NCBI GenBank assembly: GCA_003116975.1
Contig: BGKB01000012.1
Span: forward strand, 558,001-622,000
DNA: 64,000 nucleotides
DNA from: Aurantiochytrium sp. KH105
Lineage: Eukaryota; Sar; Bigyra; Thraustochytrida; Thraustochytriidae
Reading direction: 5' to 3'
Shown: piece after piece, positions 13,933-53,436 of the stretch
Position numbering within the stretch: the first letter of the stretch is position 1
Layout: every line of letters begins with the position of its first letter
Program-made: the position numbers and the translations under genes
Notes under the pieces: generated by a model
The model's input: the letters and a program-made list of their open reading frames with translations, nothing else
The model's database searches: none
Told to the model about the DNA's origin: nothing

Positions 13933-16896
13933 TTATTGTTCAAAACATCGGCGCACCAGCTCGTTGTAAAAGGCTTCCTCCTCGTACCACTTGCGTCGCA
14001 CAGGCAGCGACTCCTCCTCGAGAAAGAATCCGTCGCAGAAATCCGGCGTTGATGCAATGTACTCGCCGAAGCTCGCGTAGCTCGCGCGATGTGTCTCAGC
14101 CTCATGAACCACAACAATGTGTTTTTTAGAATTGCGCGCGCATCGAAGCTCCTCGAGGACAGCGCTGCTGGCGAAAATTCCCTTGGTCAACACCAACACA
14201 TATGTATGTGTACGACGCACGCCGTCTAGCATCGCCTGCTGATTGAGATTGGCGCGATAGCCCTGATCAAACCAAACGTTGAGGCCGCGATTCTCGAGTT
14301 TCAAATACAGAACCTCGGCCAGGTCCCCGCCCGTCGACTGTACGTGGCTCAAAAACACGTGCGTGTCTTCGTTCGGACCAAGGGCGGGAACGTCAGGCAC
14401 CCGAGCAACATCAGCACCGTCCTCGTCCGTATCAAGGGCGCCGATTTGCTCCACGAAAAAAGGATCAAAGTCTGCGACATCAGCCACGTCATCTTCCTCA
14501 TCAACGGCCCAGAGCTCTTCCGACCCATTGTCGCGCGCACTTGTCAGCTCATGATATGACACACGAGCACCCGTCATTGGGCTGTGAAGCAGCAGACGCC
14601 ACTCAAGTCCGCAAAAGACGGTCTCGGCTTGCTCGCGGAACATGGAAACCAGCAACTTGATGACACGTGCCGGCCTTTTCGCAGTGGCACTCACGGTGAT
14701 CTGGACTGAATCGCCACGTACCTCCATGAGAAAGGAATCACGACCAAAAAAAATCTTGGCCGTTTGCGCATCGAGCTTGGGGGGTCTTGGAGCCAAGCTG
14801 CGTGATGTAGCAGCATCTGGTTGCGTCGCATAGGTGGCACATTGGGCAACGAGTCGGTGGAAAACACCATTCGGCAGGAAAAATGAAGAGAAATCGAGCT
14901 CACACGTCAAGCCACGCTTGAATCTACTCGTTTCGACCTGCTGAATCGAGTCCGACAGCGAGCCCGAGATGAGAAACTCGTCCTCGTCACGATGCTCGTC
15001 AAAGCTCCACGGACACAAGAGCATATTGGCTTCCATGAACTGCAGCAAATAGTCCACCTCCTGGTCGGCCCACAGCCACTCCAGAAGCGAACGCGTCGCA
15101 ATCATGTCTCTTCGCAACCGCTCGTATGCGGGTAAGAGCCCGGCACTCTCGAGGTCGGGATCAGAAAACAAGGTTTGCGCATGAAGGTCGTCTGCAATAA
15201 CGCGAGCAAGCTTCTTCAGCAGCCACTCAGCGTCAATCACCACAACGCGCTCCAAGGTTTGCGACCCACGCAAGTGAACAACGACGCCGAGGCCGTGAAA
15301 GTACTCGAGCATGTCATCCACATCGGCACGAGGTCGGCCATACTCGGCCGCGCGCTCAACAACTTCGTCATAAAGCATAAAGGGCTCGCGGCTCTGAAGC
15401 ATGTCTTCATGGAGTTTCAGCCAGGCGAGTGGGACCTGCTCGCGCACGTAGCGCTGCTCGGACGCTACTCTCGCGATCGCAGTCCGCAATTCTACTGCGC
15501 GGTTTTCGTCAATGCTGCTGTTGTCGATCGCGAAAAAGAGATGACCCCTCTTGGGAGGCTTCACGAGGTGCTTGAGCGAAGTCGCACTGACTTGTTCGCG
15601 AAGCACGCGATTCACCTCACGGAGCTGAGTGACCTGATCGAGGAAAGTGCCGATCATGAGCACTGGCGCCTCAGGCGCATGTAGTCTGATACTGTGGAGC
15701 CAGAAGCGGAGAAACTCGATGGCTTCAGCCTGCGTCGACAGCTTTTGATACTCCTCCAGAGTCAACGTGTCGCGGAAGTGCTTCTTGCCAACAATCTCGC
15801 GCATATCAAAGACCACCAGATACAGGCCCTTGTCTGTGAGAAAGATGTGATGCAGCGCGTAGAAGACCTTTTGTCCGCCATAGTCCCAGATCGTAAAGCT
15901 CACGTCACGCGCCTCAGCCTGAGCGGCACCTTGCAGCACCGCCTGGTCTTCGTCTCGAAGGGCAAACTTTCGCGTCAGCTCCTCCTCGTCGACTAGCGCT
16001 TTTGGAGAAGGCGATTCAGGGACCGCGGGAGCCGTGGCGGCAGCGGTTCGGAGCCGAACAGGAGACTTGGAGGCAGACAGACGGCCTCCCGTGGCAGCAG
16101 AAAGAAGGCTCTGCGCTGCCTCTGACACACGCCGGCCCAGAGACTTGCGCTTGAGACTCTTGCGCTCTGGAGCATTCTGAAGGCGACGCAGATCTTCTGA
16201 CACACGCCGGCCCAGAGACTTGCGCTTGAGACTCTCGCGCGCTGGAGCATCCTGAAGGCGACGAAGAGCTGCGTAGCGAGCTTGCGCGTCAAATTCGCCA
16301 TGGTCCGAAGACAGTGCCTGCCAATGCTGGGCACTGGTGCGGTGGAGATCGGCAACCTCGGTCGAATTGTGCTCCATTACAGGCGTTTGGCCCAACAGCG
16401 AGCGCACCGTAGACGTTTTGCCAGCTGCGCCACGCCCTACCACCATGAGTTTAGCGCGACCCCAAGCATGCTCGTCACCCTCGTCGATCGCTGCCTTGAT
16501 TGCCTCCAGCCACGCATCGTCGTGGCGCTGAGGTGGATTTGCCCTATTTCGAGCGAGCGCAGCGTCGATCTCCTTGAGGATACTGTCGCCGATGTTGTTG
16601 CCACTCAGACTGAGGATTTGTTGAGAAAGAAAGAATGAAAGACAGAAAGAGAGAAAGCAAGCAAGCAAGCGAGCGAGCCAAGTCAGGTCAAGACAACACA
16701 AGACAAGCCGTGCGTGCGTGCGTGCGTGCGTGTTAGTCAGCCACTTTGCTTTCGCCTGCCTGCCTTCCTTGCCAGCCTCAGTTACTGTCACTTACGAAAG
16801 CGTCTGCACCGTCTTGTTCTGCTTGAGCGCCTCGCCCAGCGCCTTGCTGCCCTCGACGCCGATGTCGTTCCCAGCAAGACTGCGCATTCGTTGACA

Positions 16897-35098: not shown

Positions 35099-36895
35099 CT
35101 AGCGCTGCTTGGTTTCCCAGTCCGCAGGGACGTAGTATTCTTCGTGCTCCGGTGCAAGTTCATTGCCCGTGATATGCGCCGCAATTTTCTCGGCAACCAT
35201 GATCGTGGGGCTATTGAGGTTGCCACTCGTGATGCTGGGAAAGATGGATGCGTCGACGACCCGGAGATTCGAAGTGCCGTACACGGCGCCATAGGAGTCG
35301 ACGACTTTGCCCATGGCGCAAGTGCATGAAAGGTGATAGGCGCTGTGCGAAGATTGGCGAACCCATGTGTCGATGGCGTCGTCATTCTCTTTGGAAACGT
35401 TCTGTGTGTCAAGCTCAGGGTCTGGAGCGTGGCGCTTGCCCTTGTATGGCTGGAAAGCAGGCTGCTGAATAAGTTCGTCTGCCAGACGGACCGCCTTGCG
35501 CATGTCGTCGACATCCTGTTGCGTACCGAGAAAGTTAGGGTCAATAAGAGGAGCGGCTTTGGGATCAGAGCTCGCAAGGCGGATCGTGCCGCGCGAGGTA
35601 GGACGAAGCGTGCCCACATGAATCTGAAAGCCATGATGAGGTAATACCTCAAGCTGGCCAACGACACATCCGGGAATAAAATGGTACTGAATGTCAGGAT
35701 GCTTGTGACCCTTGTCGGTACGAATGAAGGCCCCGGTCTCGAACTGGTTCGAGGCGCACACACCCGTTCCACGAAGAAACCACTCGATGCCCACACCAAG
35801 GCGGTCGTGTAGGTGACGGACCGTCCAGGCGGCGACCGGATAGAGGCTCACGGGCAGATTACAGAGATATTGAAGATACACCTCAAGATGATCCTGGAGG
35901 TTTTTGCCCACCTCAGGATTGTGATGAACAATATCAGTAATGCCCTGTTCCGTGAGTTGGTCGCGATCTCCGATGCCAGAAAGCATGAGCGTCTGCGGAG
36001 AGCCGACAGCACCCATGCAGAGGATGACTTCCTTTTCTGCCATGACATGGAAAATCTCGCCAGTCTTGGTATCTTCGCATTCTACGCCAACGGCACGCGG
36101 GACAGCGCCGTCCTCCTTGTCGGTTTCGAAAATGACGCGATGTACAAGCGTCTCGAGAAAGATGTCGAGCTTGTCTTTGCGAGCGGGATCGGCCATTGCT
36201 GGGTGCAAGTATGCCGCTGCAGCAGAACAGCGCTTGCCTGTGTCCGGGTCGACGGTCATGTCAAAAGGCCCGAAGCCTTCCTGCATGAAGCCGTTGGTGT
36301 CCTTGGTCACAGGGTACCCCGCTTCGGCGCCAGCTTCTTCGAGTACGTTGAAGAGTACATTGGTGCGGGACTTGGGAGACTCGTAGTTTGTGACCTTGAG
36401 AGGGCCTTCGTAGCCCCGGTACGGACTCGGGTCCGTGTCGCTGTCCGAATCTCTACTTTTGAACGACTGCGCACGCTTAAAGTACGGGAGCACGTCAGCA
36501 TAGCCCCAGCCCGAGACGCCTTCACTCTCATTCCAGCGTTCAAAGTCGAGGGCATGGCCGCGCACGTAGACCATGGCGTTGATGCTAGAGGATCCGCCCA
36601 AGACCTTGCCACGCGGCTGGTGCACGCTCCGTCCATCAAGTCCCTTTTGTGGCGTGGTGTAATAGTTCCAGTTGTACCTTTCGTCGGCGACGCTGTACGT
36701 GAGCGCCGCGGGCATCTGGATCGTCCACGAGTCGATGCGGCCAATGTCGAACTTGCCAGCCTCGATCACGGCGACGCTACGTTTACCTCCTTCCGAGAGT
36801 CTGTTCGCCATGACGCAGCCCGCGGACCCTGCGCCCAAAACGACATAGTCTACGATTTTGCGGACCGTCGCCGCGGACCCTCGGCGCGCCGCCAT
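35099..36895 (-). CDS. GMC oxidoreductase, probable choline dehydrogenase
   Basis: A 598-aa flavoprotein of the glucose-methanol-choline family, closest in motif spacing to choline dehydrogenase (choline to betaine aldehyde, feeding glycine betaine synthesis). The FAD-binding motif is at the N-terminus (VVLGAGSAGCVMANRL, ~18-33), then HQPRGKVLGGSSSINAMVYV (PROSITE GMC-1 type) and GAVGSPQTLMLSGIGD (GMC-2). The C-terminus has SAYHLSCTCAMG with the active-site His and GNLNSPTIMVAEK with the partner Asn. Family members usually read SCKMG where this has CTCAMG. Length fits (about 550-600 aa). The N-terminus MAARRGSAATVRK is short and basic, so mitochondrial import is possible but not clear. An alcohol or other polyol substrate cannot be excluded. 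Confidence 0.88.
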   Translation of the reverse strand: MAARRGSAATVRKIVDYVVLGAGSAGCVMANRLSEGGKRSVAVIEAGKFDIGRIDSWTIQMPAALTYSVADERYNWNYYTTPQKGLDGRSVHQPRGKVLGGSSSINAMVYVRGHALDFERWNESEGVSGWGYADVLPYFKRAQSFKSRDSDSDTDPSPYRGYEGPLKVTNYESPKSRTNVLFNVLEEAGAEAGYPVTKDTNGFMQEGFGPFDMTVDPDTGKRCSAAAAYLHPAMADPARKDKLDIFLETLVHRVIFETDKEDGAVPRAVGVECEDTKTGEIFHVMAEKEVILCMGAVGSPQTLMLSGIGDRDQLTEQGITDIVHHNPEVGKNLQDHLEVYLQYLCNLPVSLYPVAAWTVRHLHDRLGVGIEWFLRGTGVCASNQFETGAFIRTDKGHKHPDIQYHFIPGCVVGQLEVLPHHGFQIHVGTLRPTSRGTIRLASSDPKAAPLIDPNFLGTQQDVDDMRKAVRLADELIQQPAFQPYKGKRHAPDPELDTQNVSKENDDAIDTWVRQSSHSAYHLSCTCAMGKVVDSYGAVYGTSNLRVVDASIFPSITSGNLNSPTIMVAEKIAAHITGNELAPEHEEYYVPADWETKQR

Positions 36896-50484: not shown

Positions 50485-53436
50485 TTATTTGGAGGTGAGC
50501 TTCTCACGAGCAATAAGCGCGCCATGGGAAATCAATGCTGCGCCTTGGCCAGAGCCGTCCTTCGCAAGGATGACGTTGCACTGCACGGCAAGTTCGCCCA
50601 AACCGGCCGAAAGACGCTGACGAAAGGACGGATGATGCTCAAAGACGGAACCATCAATACCAACAACGAGGTCAGAGTCCTGCGAACCAATTTGGCGGAT
50701 GCAGGCGGCAATTGCGCAGGCCGTGAGGTTTGCGGCGCGCTGAATAATCATACCGCAAATCTCCTTGAGCTTGATGCGATCCTCGAGCGTGGAACCCTCG
50801 ACGCCAAAGGTTTTCTCGACACGGTGGACAATGTGCAGCTGCTCGGACATGTCGTACTCGATATCCGAAAGGTAGCGACTGAGGAAGGAGTTGGGCTTGC
50901 GAAGGTCGGCTTTGACCTCGACACCAGGCTCTGACCAAATCTCGCCCGAATCATACATGCGCACGAGGCAAAGGCGAACCATCTCACCCAAATACATGCC
51001 CGAGATCATCTTTTCCAAGAGCTGCTGGCCCTTGTTGCGCGAGTTGTCGTCGATTTCACGGTCGACATCCGTGCTTGGGAGCATTTTACCATTCGATCCG
51101 AAGTTACCCCACTCTGTGTTGATGATCATCTCGCCACCGCGGTCGCGGATCTCCTTGGGCAGCTTGAGGATGTTCTCGACCTTTTCACGGTAGGCGGCGT
51201 TGGTGCCTGTGCCGAGAATGACGCCAATGTGCGTGCGTGGGTCCGTGTAAGCGGCGCTAATGAGGGTACCGACCGTGTCGTTGACGAGGGCAGTAATGTC
51301 GCCCTCGAAGCCGCGACGCTTGAAGGCGTCGCGAAGGAGTTCTACAACATCGTGGTCGACGACACCCGTGGTGTTAAAGCCCTTGGTCCAGCTGATGAGC
51401 GTGCCGCGATCGATGGCGGTCTGCTGCGTAGGGAAGGAAAACGTAAACCCATAGAAGCGGCCGCCAGTGGTAGCGTCATCGGCGGACGTATCGAGCGATG
51501 CAACACACTCGGCCAGAAAGTCAAAGAGCTCTTCAGCCGTGCCGGTCATCTTGCTATCAGGCACGGTGTATTTCCGCTCATCCGTGATGGAGGCGGAGCC
51601 CATGCCGTCAAAGGTGAAGCGCGAGACGCGAAAGTTGGTACCACCCAGATCAAGCGCGTAAAAGACGCCCTTTTCGCGGCTTGTGGGAATCTCCGTCACA
51701 TAGCTGGGCAGCATGCGGATCGAGCTCTCGATACCCTGAAGACCACGACGCATTTCCATGAAGAAGTGAGTGGCGATTTCCTCCATTTGGGATCCAGTAA
51801 GGCTGAACTGAGACGTGAGGTCGGAAAAGACCGAACGAGGCTTGAAGCCGAGGAGTTCGGACTCGAGTTTGTAGCCCACGAATCCAGCGCTTGCCATGAG
51901 ATTGTACGCCGCCGAGGGTCCGCGGCTGCCCACAACGTAGCGATGGACCTCGACACCTTCAAGGTCATCGTCGCCTTCGATATCGCGGAGAAGGGGGTCG
52001 AAGATGTTCCAAATGGCGTCAACTTCATCGTCGCGGGAGAATGAGGAACGGTCGTTGCTGATGACATCGTAGATGAGACGCTCGTACGAGTCTGGCGTAT
52101 AGGCGTTGAGGAGCGGGTACTCGGCGAGCGCAGAGTTTTTGCGCGGCTTACCATCCACATCCGCGGCGAGACTCTGCGCAATGGGTGATTCAAAGCGCGA
52201 GGCCATCTTGTTGAGGTTCGTCTGACTGGTGACGTGCTGCATGGCAGGACGGTTGATGCTGTCGAGCAGCGTAGAGGGGTCGTTTCCGAGCAGGTCGAGC
52301 TTGGTGACCGCAACATTGAGCTTGAGGCCGGGCACCTTGCGCATCATCTTCATGTAAATATCGCTGTTGGGCTGAATGCGGATGACCAGCTCGTTAAGCG
52401 GGCCGCCGCCACGGTGCGCGGGGAAGAGCTTGTTGTGTGGCGGCTTGAATTGGACGCGCACATCGGTGCGGCGTTCGTACATGCCCTTTCCTGCCTTGAG
52501 GATGAAAGGAACGCCGTGCCAGCGAGGGTTGTTGATGTACAGCACGCAGAGCGCAAAGGTGGGCGTCGAGGAATCGGCGTTCACGCCCTCGGTGTCGGTG
52601 TAGCCGCGGTACTGGCCAAGCACAGTGTCCTCGAGCTTGGCGGGCTCGACGCAGCGGAGAACCTTGGCAACCTCGTCGCTGACGCTCTTGCCATCAGTGA
52701 GATCTACAGGGGTTTCCATGGCGACGAGCGCCATGATATGCATGAGATGGTCAATGATAAGGTCGCGAATGATGCCGTAGTCGTCAAAGACAGAGGCGAG
52801 CTCGCCAGAGGGCACGAGGATGCTCTCGCGGCAGCTGATCACGACTGCGTTGACGTTGCTCGAGTTCCAGGATGGTTCAAGGAAGCGGTTGGCAAAGCGG
52901 ACTGCGACGATGTTCTGCACCATTTCCTTGCCAACGAAATGGTCGAGGCGAAAGATGTTTTCCTCGCCATCAAAGGCCTTTTGCAGCTTGCGTGTGAGAT
53001 CTTTGGCAGAGCGCCCATCGTAATGGAGGGGCCTCTCGACGACGCAGCGCAGCCAGCCACCGGCCTTTTTGCACTGCACGCGGAGCTTGTTGGCGAGAGG
53101 CTCCGGGTCAGTCTCGGCAATATCAAGCAGCGGGTTGAGGTAGACGAGGACGCGAGAGTGGCCCTCGAGGCGCTTCGCCACGACGTCTGCGACTTCGGCC
53201 TTGAGGCAGTCTCCCTGAATAAAATGACACTTGTCGAGGAAGCCGTCGAGATCTCCTGCGCCGAGACGGGGGCGCAGGGACTTTCGAAAGGATGCATCGT
53301 TGAGATCATCCTCTGCGACGCAGATGACCGTCATCTCGCGCACGGTCTCGGTGCAAAAGAGCCTGAAGAGCGCCGGGAAGGTGTTCTTGAACGCCAGTTC
53401 GCCCGTGGCGTCCACGACAACGACGCCGACCGGCAT
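50485..53436 (-). CDS. Fused glucose-6-phosphate dehydrogenase and hexokinase
   Basis: One uninterrupted 983-codon frame encodes two enzymes. Residues 1-~500 follow glucose-6-phosphate dehydrogenase: GELAFKNTFPALFRLF (family GDLAKKKxxPALF), VVERPLHYD (EKPFGxD), FRLDHFVGKEMVQN with the active-site Asp-His and Lys (163-174), RVQFKPPHNKLF, and YERLIYDVISNDRSSF (451-466). The N-terminal Rossmann glycines are altered (VVVDATGEL for FGASGDL) and the EKP lysine is Arg136. Residues ~540-983 are a eukaryotic hexokinase with intact motifs: ALDLGGTNFRVSRFTF (~594-609), FSFPTQQTAIDRGTLISWTK (~666-685), ALVNDTVGTL with the catalytic Asp720, and LGTGTNAAY (741-749). Together they would turn glucose into glucose-6-phosphate and then 6-phosphogluconolactone. 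The start is ATG 53436. Confidence 0.93.
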   Translation of the reverse strand: MPVGVVVVDATGELAFKNTFPALFRLFCTETVREMTVICVAEDDLNDASFRKSLRPRLGAGDLDGFLDKCHFIQGDCLKAEVADVVAKRLEGHSRVLVYLNPLLDIAETDPEPLANKLRVQCKKAGGWLRCVVERPLHYDGRSAKDLTRKLQKAFDGEENIFRLDHFVGKEMVQNIVAVRFANRFLEPSWNSSNVNAVVISCRESILVPSGELASVFDDYGIIRDLIIDHLMHIMALVAMETPVDLTDGKSVSDEVAKVLRCVEPAKLEDTVLGQYRGYTDTEGVNADSSTPTFALCVLYINNPRWHGVPFILKAGKGMYERRTDVRVQFKPPHNKLFPAHRGGGPLNELVIRIQPNSDIYMKMMRKVPGLKLNVAVTKLDLLGNDPSTLLDSINRPAMQHVTSQTNLNKMASRFESPIAQSLAADVDGKPRKNSALAEYPLLNAYTPDSYERLIYDVISNDRSSFSRDDEVDAIWNIFDPLLRDIEGDDDLEGVEVHRYVVGSRGPSAAYNLMASAGFVGYKLESELLGFKPRSVFSDLTSQFSLTGSQMEEIATHFFMEMRRGLQGIESSIRMLPSYVTEIPTSREKGVFYALDLGGTNFRVSRFTFDGMGSASITDERKYTVPDSKMTGTAEELFDFLAECVASLDTSADDATTGGRFYGFTFSFPTQQTAIDRGTLISWTKGFNTTGVVDHDVVELLRDAFKRRGFEGDITALVNDTVGTLISAAYTDPRTHIGVILGTGTNAAYREKVENILKLPKEIRDRGGEMIINTEWGNFGSNGKMLPSTDVDREIDDNSRNKGQQLLEKMISGMYLGEMVRLCLVRMYDSGEIWSEPGVEVKADLRKPNSFLSRYLSDIEYDMSEQLHIVHRVEKTFGVEGSTLEDRIKLKEICGMIIQRAANLTACAIAACIRQIGSQDSDLVVGIDGSVFEHHPSFRQRLSAGLGELAVQCNVILAKDGSGQGAALISHGALIAREKLTSK

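Follow-up and report, generated by a model that had tools for sequence, protein, structure and literature searches.

A single-frame fusion of a diverged glucose-6-phosphate dehydrogenase with hexokinase in Aurantiochytrium sp. KH105 and its possible role in sensing the hexokinase product

Feedback of glucose-6-phosphate (G6P) on hexokinase has a central place in sugar metabolism, and most of what is known about it comes from the mammalian tandem hexokinases. Mammalian hexokinase I is composed of two hexokinase halves, of which the N-terminal half is regulatory. A sugar-phosphate-binding regulator of a hexokinase-family enzyme is also found in the glucokinase regulatory protein. Glucose-6-phosphate dehydrogenase (G6PD) occurs in natural fusions with 6-phosphogluconolactonase (6PGL) in apicomplexans, in excavates and in animal H6PD, and a fusion with 6PGD has been described in Phaeodactylum, where a newer genome annotation splits it (PMC3148214). 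In Arabidopsis, G6PD4 of the P0 class is reported to be a catalytically inactive isoform which interacts with G6PD1 (PMC12125578). Here we describe a gene in which G6PD is joined to hexokinase, located in a stretch of 64,000 nucleotides from the thraustochytrid Aurantiochytrium sp. KH105 (contig BGKB01000012.1, positions 558,001 to 622,000; hereafter the window, in which all coordinates are given).

The window fusion is similar to the G6PD-6PGL and G6PD-6PGD fusions in that G6PD is naturally fused to a pathway neighbour, but those fusions join later steps, whereas the window fusion joins the preceding step and its cofactor residues are changed. As in mammalian hexokinase I, a catalytic C-terminal hexokinase follows an N-terminal half that is derived from an enzyme. 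In hexokinase I this half originates from a hexokinase, whereas in the window it originates from G6PD and we infer its regulatory role. The glucokinase regulatory protein is unlike this N-terminal half, being a separate protein with another fold. Arabidopsis G6PD4 can be likened to it by description only, as a G6PD isoform reported to be inactive and to have a partner role; no hexokinase part is described in the accessible part of that report (PMC12125578). Enzyme fusions and product-regulated hexokinases are already known, and the pairing of G6PD with hexokinase was not found. No natural fusion of the two was present among the matches listed in a search of the open-access literature, outside which most subscription journals and supplementary files lie, and in the accessible text of a survey covering 10 stramenopiles the word hexokinase appears once, in the introduction (PMC3148214).

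The fusion of G6PD and hexokinase is present in the sequence in one frame (Table 1). A Pfam search identified G6PD_N, G6PD_C, Hexokinase_1 and Hexokinase_2 in this order along one protein, with scores of 93.1, 257.9, 217.8 and 247.4 bits against cut-offs of 22.1, 27, 24.3 and 24, respectively, and matches this strong, arranged head to tail within one frame, rule out chance. The G6PD part overall comprises residues 6-519 and the hexokinase residues 539-969, the latter with Hexokinase_1 at residues 539-730 (1.7e-64) and Hexokinase_2 at residues 737-969 (1.7e-73). The ATG is preceded by an in-frame stop codon, and no run of N occurs in the window. Codon periodicity is continuous across the G6PD-hexokinase join. 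The GC contents at the three codon positions of residues 520-545 (0.54/0.38/0.77) and of a 60-residue insertion in the G6PD part, residues 384-443 (0.60/0.45/0.75), resemble those of the remainder of the gene. Relative synonymous codon usage (RSCU) correlates at 0.90 between the G6PD half and the hexokinase half, and at 0.87 and 0.90 between each half and five other frames of the window. Domain order, periodicity and RSCU confirm the single-frame fusion of 983 codons that had been proposed from the sequence alone (the original prediction). The frame at 50485-53436 exists as proposed, on the minus strand, which had been left unstated. The join had been placed at 51900-52000, which still lies within the G6PD tail, and is actually found at about 51823-51879. 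An intron hidden in the insertion is unlikely, as the single GTAAGC site within it, at residue 429, is close to the insertion end and the periodicity is coding throughout.

Table 1. Coordinates in the window of the fusion gene, its parts and selected residues.
Feature	Position	Strand	Basis
Whole frame, 983 codons	50485..53436	minus	ATG 53436-53434, TAA 50487-50485
G6PD_N (Rossmann, catalytic-cofactor) domain, residues 6-175, diverged	52912..53421	minus	Pfam PF00479 4.5e-26; 35/152 identical to human
Asp9, replacing Gly38 of GxxGDL fingerprint	53410..53412	minus	G in 69/69 and 86/86 panel members
Glu42, replacing Arg72	53311..53313	minus	R in 65/69, K in 3, I in 1
Arg135, replacing Lys171 of EKPxG	53032..53034	minus	K in 69/69 and 86/86
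G6PD_C domain, residues 178-383	52288..52905	minus	Pfam PF02781 1.3e-76, two stretches
His230, counterpart of catalytic base His263	52747..52749	minus	Alignment; role from PMC11448927
Insertion, 60 residues, 384-443; predicted poorly ordered, coding-like	52108..52287	minus	
C-terminal end of G6PD part, residues 444-519	51880..52107	minus	Second phmmer stretch against human G6PD (PDB)
Linker, residues 520-538	51823..51879	minus	Between Pfam and phmmer domain matches
Hexokinase, residues 539-969	50530..51822	minus	Pfam PF00349 and PF03727; residue comparison; Foldseek to hexokinases
Catalytic Asp720, counterpart of HK1 Asp657	51279-51277	minus	Residue comparison with HK1-C

Both hexokinase domains are complete (profile positions 4-201 of 201 and 2-239 of 242), and the hexokinase half matched hexokinases in the PDB with E-values down to 8e-174. 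It is 43% identical to the C-terminal half of human HK1 (HK1-C) and 40% identical to the N-terminal half. At glucose, ATP and catalytic positions, 20 of the 22 HK1-C residues are kept and the remaining two are changes from T to S, in agreement with the intact hexokinase motifs of the original prediction; catalytic Asp657 of HK1 corresponds to Asp720. In the full-length AlphaFold model, mean predicted local distance difference test (pLDDT) scores reach at least 90 in most ten-residue blocks of the hexokinase half. All 50 listed Foldseek matches belong to hexokinases or glucokinases from yeast, plants, animals and human, and one of them, judged by its title, is a PDB entry of HK1 with G6P. We infer that the hexokinase half is functional as a hexokinase.

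The G6PD half was compared with two panels of sequences. The first panel contained 86 sequences (human, four plasmid, one phage and 80 from IMG/VR, kept of 551). A second panel was built because the first is mostly viral, and consists of 69 sequences: human, 45 G6PD loci from GTDB, the five plasmid or phage loci of the first panel and, selected from its 80 IMG/VR sequences at 80% identity, 18 viral representatives. The GTDB loci are a non-random sample, containing only the best-scoring matches of the larger phylum search and all 13 matches of the smaller one. Identity to human G6PD is 23% in the N domain and 45% (131/292) in the C domain. The resulting N/C ratio of 0.51 is exceeded by every one of the 68 non-human panel members (minimum 0.65, mean 0.84), human being the only eukaryote both in this panel and in the controls of the following test, which limits both measures. 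With the NCBIfam zwf equivalog model, which serves prokaryote annotation, the full protein scored 349.5 bits and stayed below the cut-off of 400.6 bits, which was passed by all six controls, human and five plasmid or phage G6PDs (445.6-664.6 bits for these five). Window residues 1-423 scored 303.7 bits compared to 550.4 bits for the human fragment 35-423. These comparisons indicate that the G6PD half is not an ordinary G6PD; its origin probably lies in a eukaryotic-type G6PD.

The G6PD half deviates at the site of the catalytic nicotinamide adenine dinucleotide phosphate (NADP). Residue roles and two sets of nine positions, one for catalytic NADP and one for G6P, were taken from the accessible text of PMC11448927. 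The window differs at five of the nine catalytic-NADP positions (G38D, D42E, R72E, K171R and G174H), while in the second panel 63 members differ at none and six at one, the maximum. Arg72 is located near the 2'-phosphate of catalytic NADP (PMC11448927). D42 is kept in 68/69 panel members, and Gly174, replaced by His138, is G in 69/69 and 86/86 members of the two panels. The window has DATGEL and ERPLH in place of GxxGDL and EKPxG, matching neither motif. The altered first Rossmann glycine (Gly38 to Asp9) and the change of EKP to ERP had been noted in the original prediction, and both Gly38 and Lys171 are invariant in the panels. The five differing positions also support the altered cofactor site that had been suggested there. 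In a wider set of 13 cofactor positions, tabulated before the nine-position sets, the window differs at eight and the panel at three at most. L140, Y147 and the proline motif LPP belong to the wider set only. Y147 is changed in the window, and the panel majority at this position is Phe; LPP was kept out of the nine-position set because two alignments place the motif differently.

At the G6P set (D200, H201, Y202, K205, D258, H263, K360, R365 and Q395) the window differs at a single position (Y202F) and keeps the other eight. In the second panel 28 members differ at none of these positions, 32 at one, seven at two and two at three. Judged by the nine-position sets, conservation of the G6P site equals that seen in the panel, while the cofactor site is beyond the panel range. 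Asp165, His166 and Lys170 of the G6P region are found directly ahead of the G6PD_C domain, which holds Glu204, Asp225, His230, Lys317, Arg322 and Gln355. A wider set of 12 G6P/catalysis positions, from which Q395 is absent and to which R198, G204, E239 and R246 are particular, differs at two positions, Y202 and R246, equal to the panel maximum of two. The contrast between the wider sets (8/13 vs 2/12) gives a Fisher p of 0.029. Of the residues lining the structural-NADP site, R370, R393, Y401, K403, D421, R487 and G488 are present, K238, K366 and R357 are substituted (K238R, K366R and R357K), and Y503 and W509 fall outside the alignment. The interface residue Lys407 is also retained.

Structure models were obtained for the full-length protein (mean pLDDT 79.3; predicted template modelling score, pTM, 0.61), for which the pTM is too low to place the halves relative to each other, and for the G6PD half alone (mean pLDDT 73.2, pTM 0.75). 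The top Foldseek match of the latter is human G6PD (7ual_A, TM score 0.82 by target length). A Rossmann fold is still predicted, with block pLDDT values of 84-92 across residues 1-100, but the models were built on alignments of G6PDs and hexokinases taken from other loci, and the predicted fold is no indicator of cofactor binding. Both models predict poor order for the insertion, and the full-length model does so for residues 489-526 as well.

These data suggest, tentatively and with a likelihood just short of even, that the protein is a hexokinase carrying a regulatory domain which derives from G6PD, is probably non-catalytic and responds to G6P. In such a protein the hexokinase would be active and produce G6P. 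The G6PD half would no longer catalyse the usual NADP+ reaction at an appreciable rate, would bind the G6P that the attached hexokinase produces, and might bind NADP(H) in what was once the structural site. Its ligand state would be relayed to the hexokinase as an allosteric, probably inhibitory, feedback, in a role resembling that of the regulatory N-terminal half of mammalian hexokinase I. More speculatively, the fused pseudo-G6PD might read G6P and perhaps NADP(H) as well, with glucose entry being set by the pools of product and of reducing power. A simple channelling enzyme is doubted because the catalytic-NADP site is changed at five of nine positions with a panel maximum of one, which weakens the earlier proposal that the fusion channels glucose into NADPH production. 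The other earlier suggestion, that the G6PD part may be regulatory, agrees with the reading, drawn from sequence, that is preferred here in view of the altered cofactor site and the largely kept G6P site.

Several observations weigh against a G6P-responsive regulatory domain. Human is the only panel member that is neither bacterial nor viral, and both nine-position sets were fixed after the alignment had already been seen. The contrast between these two sets (5/9 cofactor vs 1/9 G6P positions) reaches a p of 0.066 only. Of the columns conserved in at least 95% of the 69 sequences, the window has changed 5/15 in the N domain and 9/43 in the C domain. In leave-one-out controls, four N-domain changes were found in an annotated zwf (locus L001), the highest number, and human G6PD showed two in the N domain and four in the C domain; the highest number in the C domain was five among the ten rows listed. 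By this measure the N-domain excess of changes at conserved columns is small. The catalytic dyad Asp200/His263 is retained as Asp165/His230, and R246, outside the published nine positions and conserved in at least 68/69, is Leu in the window. At the structural-NADP site N363 is Tyr, and E416/E417/E419 are A/V/K. K171 and Y202, both changed in the window, also touch G6P (PMC11448927), and these changes may weaken G6P binding. Concerning the dyad, His263 adjoins the sugar in any case because it removes the C1-hydroxyl proton of G6P (PMC11448927). The acids E416, E417 and E419 can draw the oxidised nicotinamide, NADPH being a poor binder there (PMC11448927), and their replacement suggests a possible shift in nucleotide preference.

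A true bifunctional enzyme, in which the hexokinase makes G6P and the G6PD part oxidises it, perhaps with another cofactor preference, is considered unlikely. NAD-binding Rossmann folds typically carry an acidic residue where the second strand ends, and Glu42 in place of Arg72 would favour NAD+ over NADP+. The retained dyad, the eight kept G6P positions and the predicted Rossmann fold would also fit an enzyme that still oxidises G6P. However, Gly38, Asp42, Lys171, Gly174 and Arg246 are changed, each of which is conserved in at least 68/69 panel members, the N domain specifically has diverged faster relative to human, and the protein is under the zwf cut-off which the six controls pass. Slightly less probable is a docking or scaffold function, in which an inactive G6PD half would oligomerise with an active G6PD that is a separate protein, bringing the hexokinase next to it. 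The inactive Arabidopsis isoform interacting with an active one provides a published precedent (PMC12125578), G6PD functions as dimer and tetramer (PMC11448927) and Lys407 of the interface is retained, but docking leaves the retained G6P contacts unexplained. It is improbable that the G6PD half is decaying while being carried by the hexokinase. Conserved columns are indeed changed in both domains (5/15 and 9/43), but the frame is open across 983 codons, the C-terminal part is 45% identical to human, and eight of nine published G6P positions are retained together with Lys407. An assembly join, a hidden intron or separate transcripts are very improbable, for although the insertion contains a GTAAGC site and the fusion is seen here in genomic DNA, codon bias is even, periodicity is continuous over the join, runs of N are absent and other eukaryotic genes of the window likewise lie in single open frames.

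If the G6PD half indeed serves as a product-responsive domain of the hexokinase, a sensor built from the downstream enzyme would represent a separate solution to the control problem that is known mainly from the mammalian tandem hexokinases. It would also be a warning against equating every G6PD match with NADPH-producing capacity.

Related genes were searched for in the GTDB, IMG/VR, phage and plasmid collections, which are prokaryotic or viral, making absence there uninformative on eukaryotic relatives; the GTDB and IMG/VR scans were based on short peptide patterns. The full-length fusion protein gave no pattern match in IMG/VR. With the hexokinase alignment, 76 stretches were matched in GTDB, of which 10 are hexokinase relatives, and 23 stretches in IMG/VR, none of which is a hexokinase relative. 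None of 95 prokaryotic or viral loci (85 G6PD and 10 hexokinase) contained both enzymes in one frame or in one locus, and a hexokinase domain was found in none of five long bacterial G6PD open frames inspected. Of the phage records 92 were matched, none over more than 80% of the fusion; of the plasmid records 263 matched the G6PD half and four the hexokinase half. Hexokinases of eukaryotic type (L086-L095), with 34-41% identity over the best segment, were observed in GTDB assemblies bearing the names Omnitrophota, Lentisphaerae, Deltaproteobacteria, Cloacimonadota and others. Another fusion was observed in a bacterial genome from the phylum of Opitutaceae bacterium EW11, in which G6PD and 6PGD share one open frame (L143:1719-4196). 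The match to the C-terminal domain of 6PGD covers 116/290 profile positions, and this fusion may be cut short.

Besides the fusion gene, eight of the 29 ATG frames of at least 300 residues in the window were scanned for domains. The neighbours include a ubiquitin/SUMO-activating-enzyme-like protein, a PP2A-scaffold-like HEAT protein, a gamma-tubulin-complex protein and an MLH1 homologue. As these neighbours are of eukaryotic type and each is encoded in a single open frame, the window resembles intron-poor nuclear DNA of a eukaryote. It contained no tRNA and no Rfam match at the gathering score. Counts in a bacterial promoter and terminator scan were within those of shuffled sequences (1 vs 1.1 and 4 vs 4.9, respectively), a scan which is not meaningful in a eukaryote. 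A frame on the minus strand at 13936-16446 encodes a protein of 837 residues with Roc, COR-A and TIR_2 domains, for which PADLOC gave a weak TIR match (3.7e-05), and a GMC oxidoreductase frame is located on the minus strand at 35102-36895.

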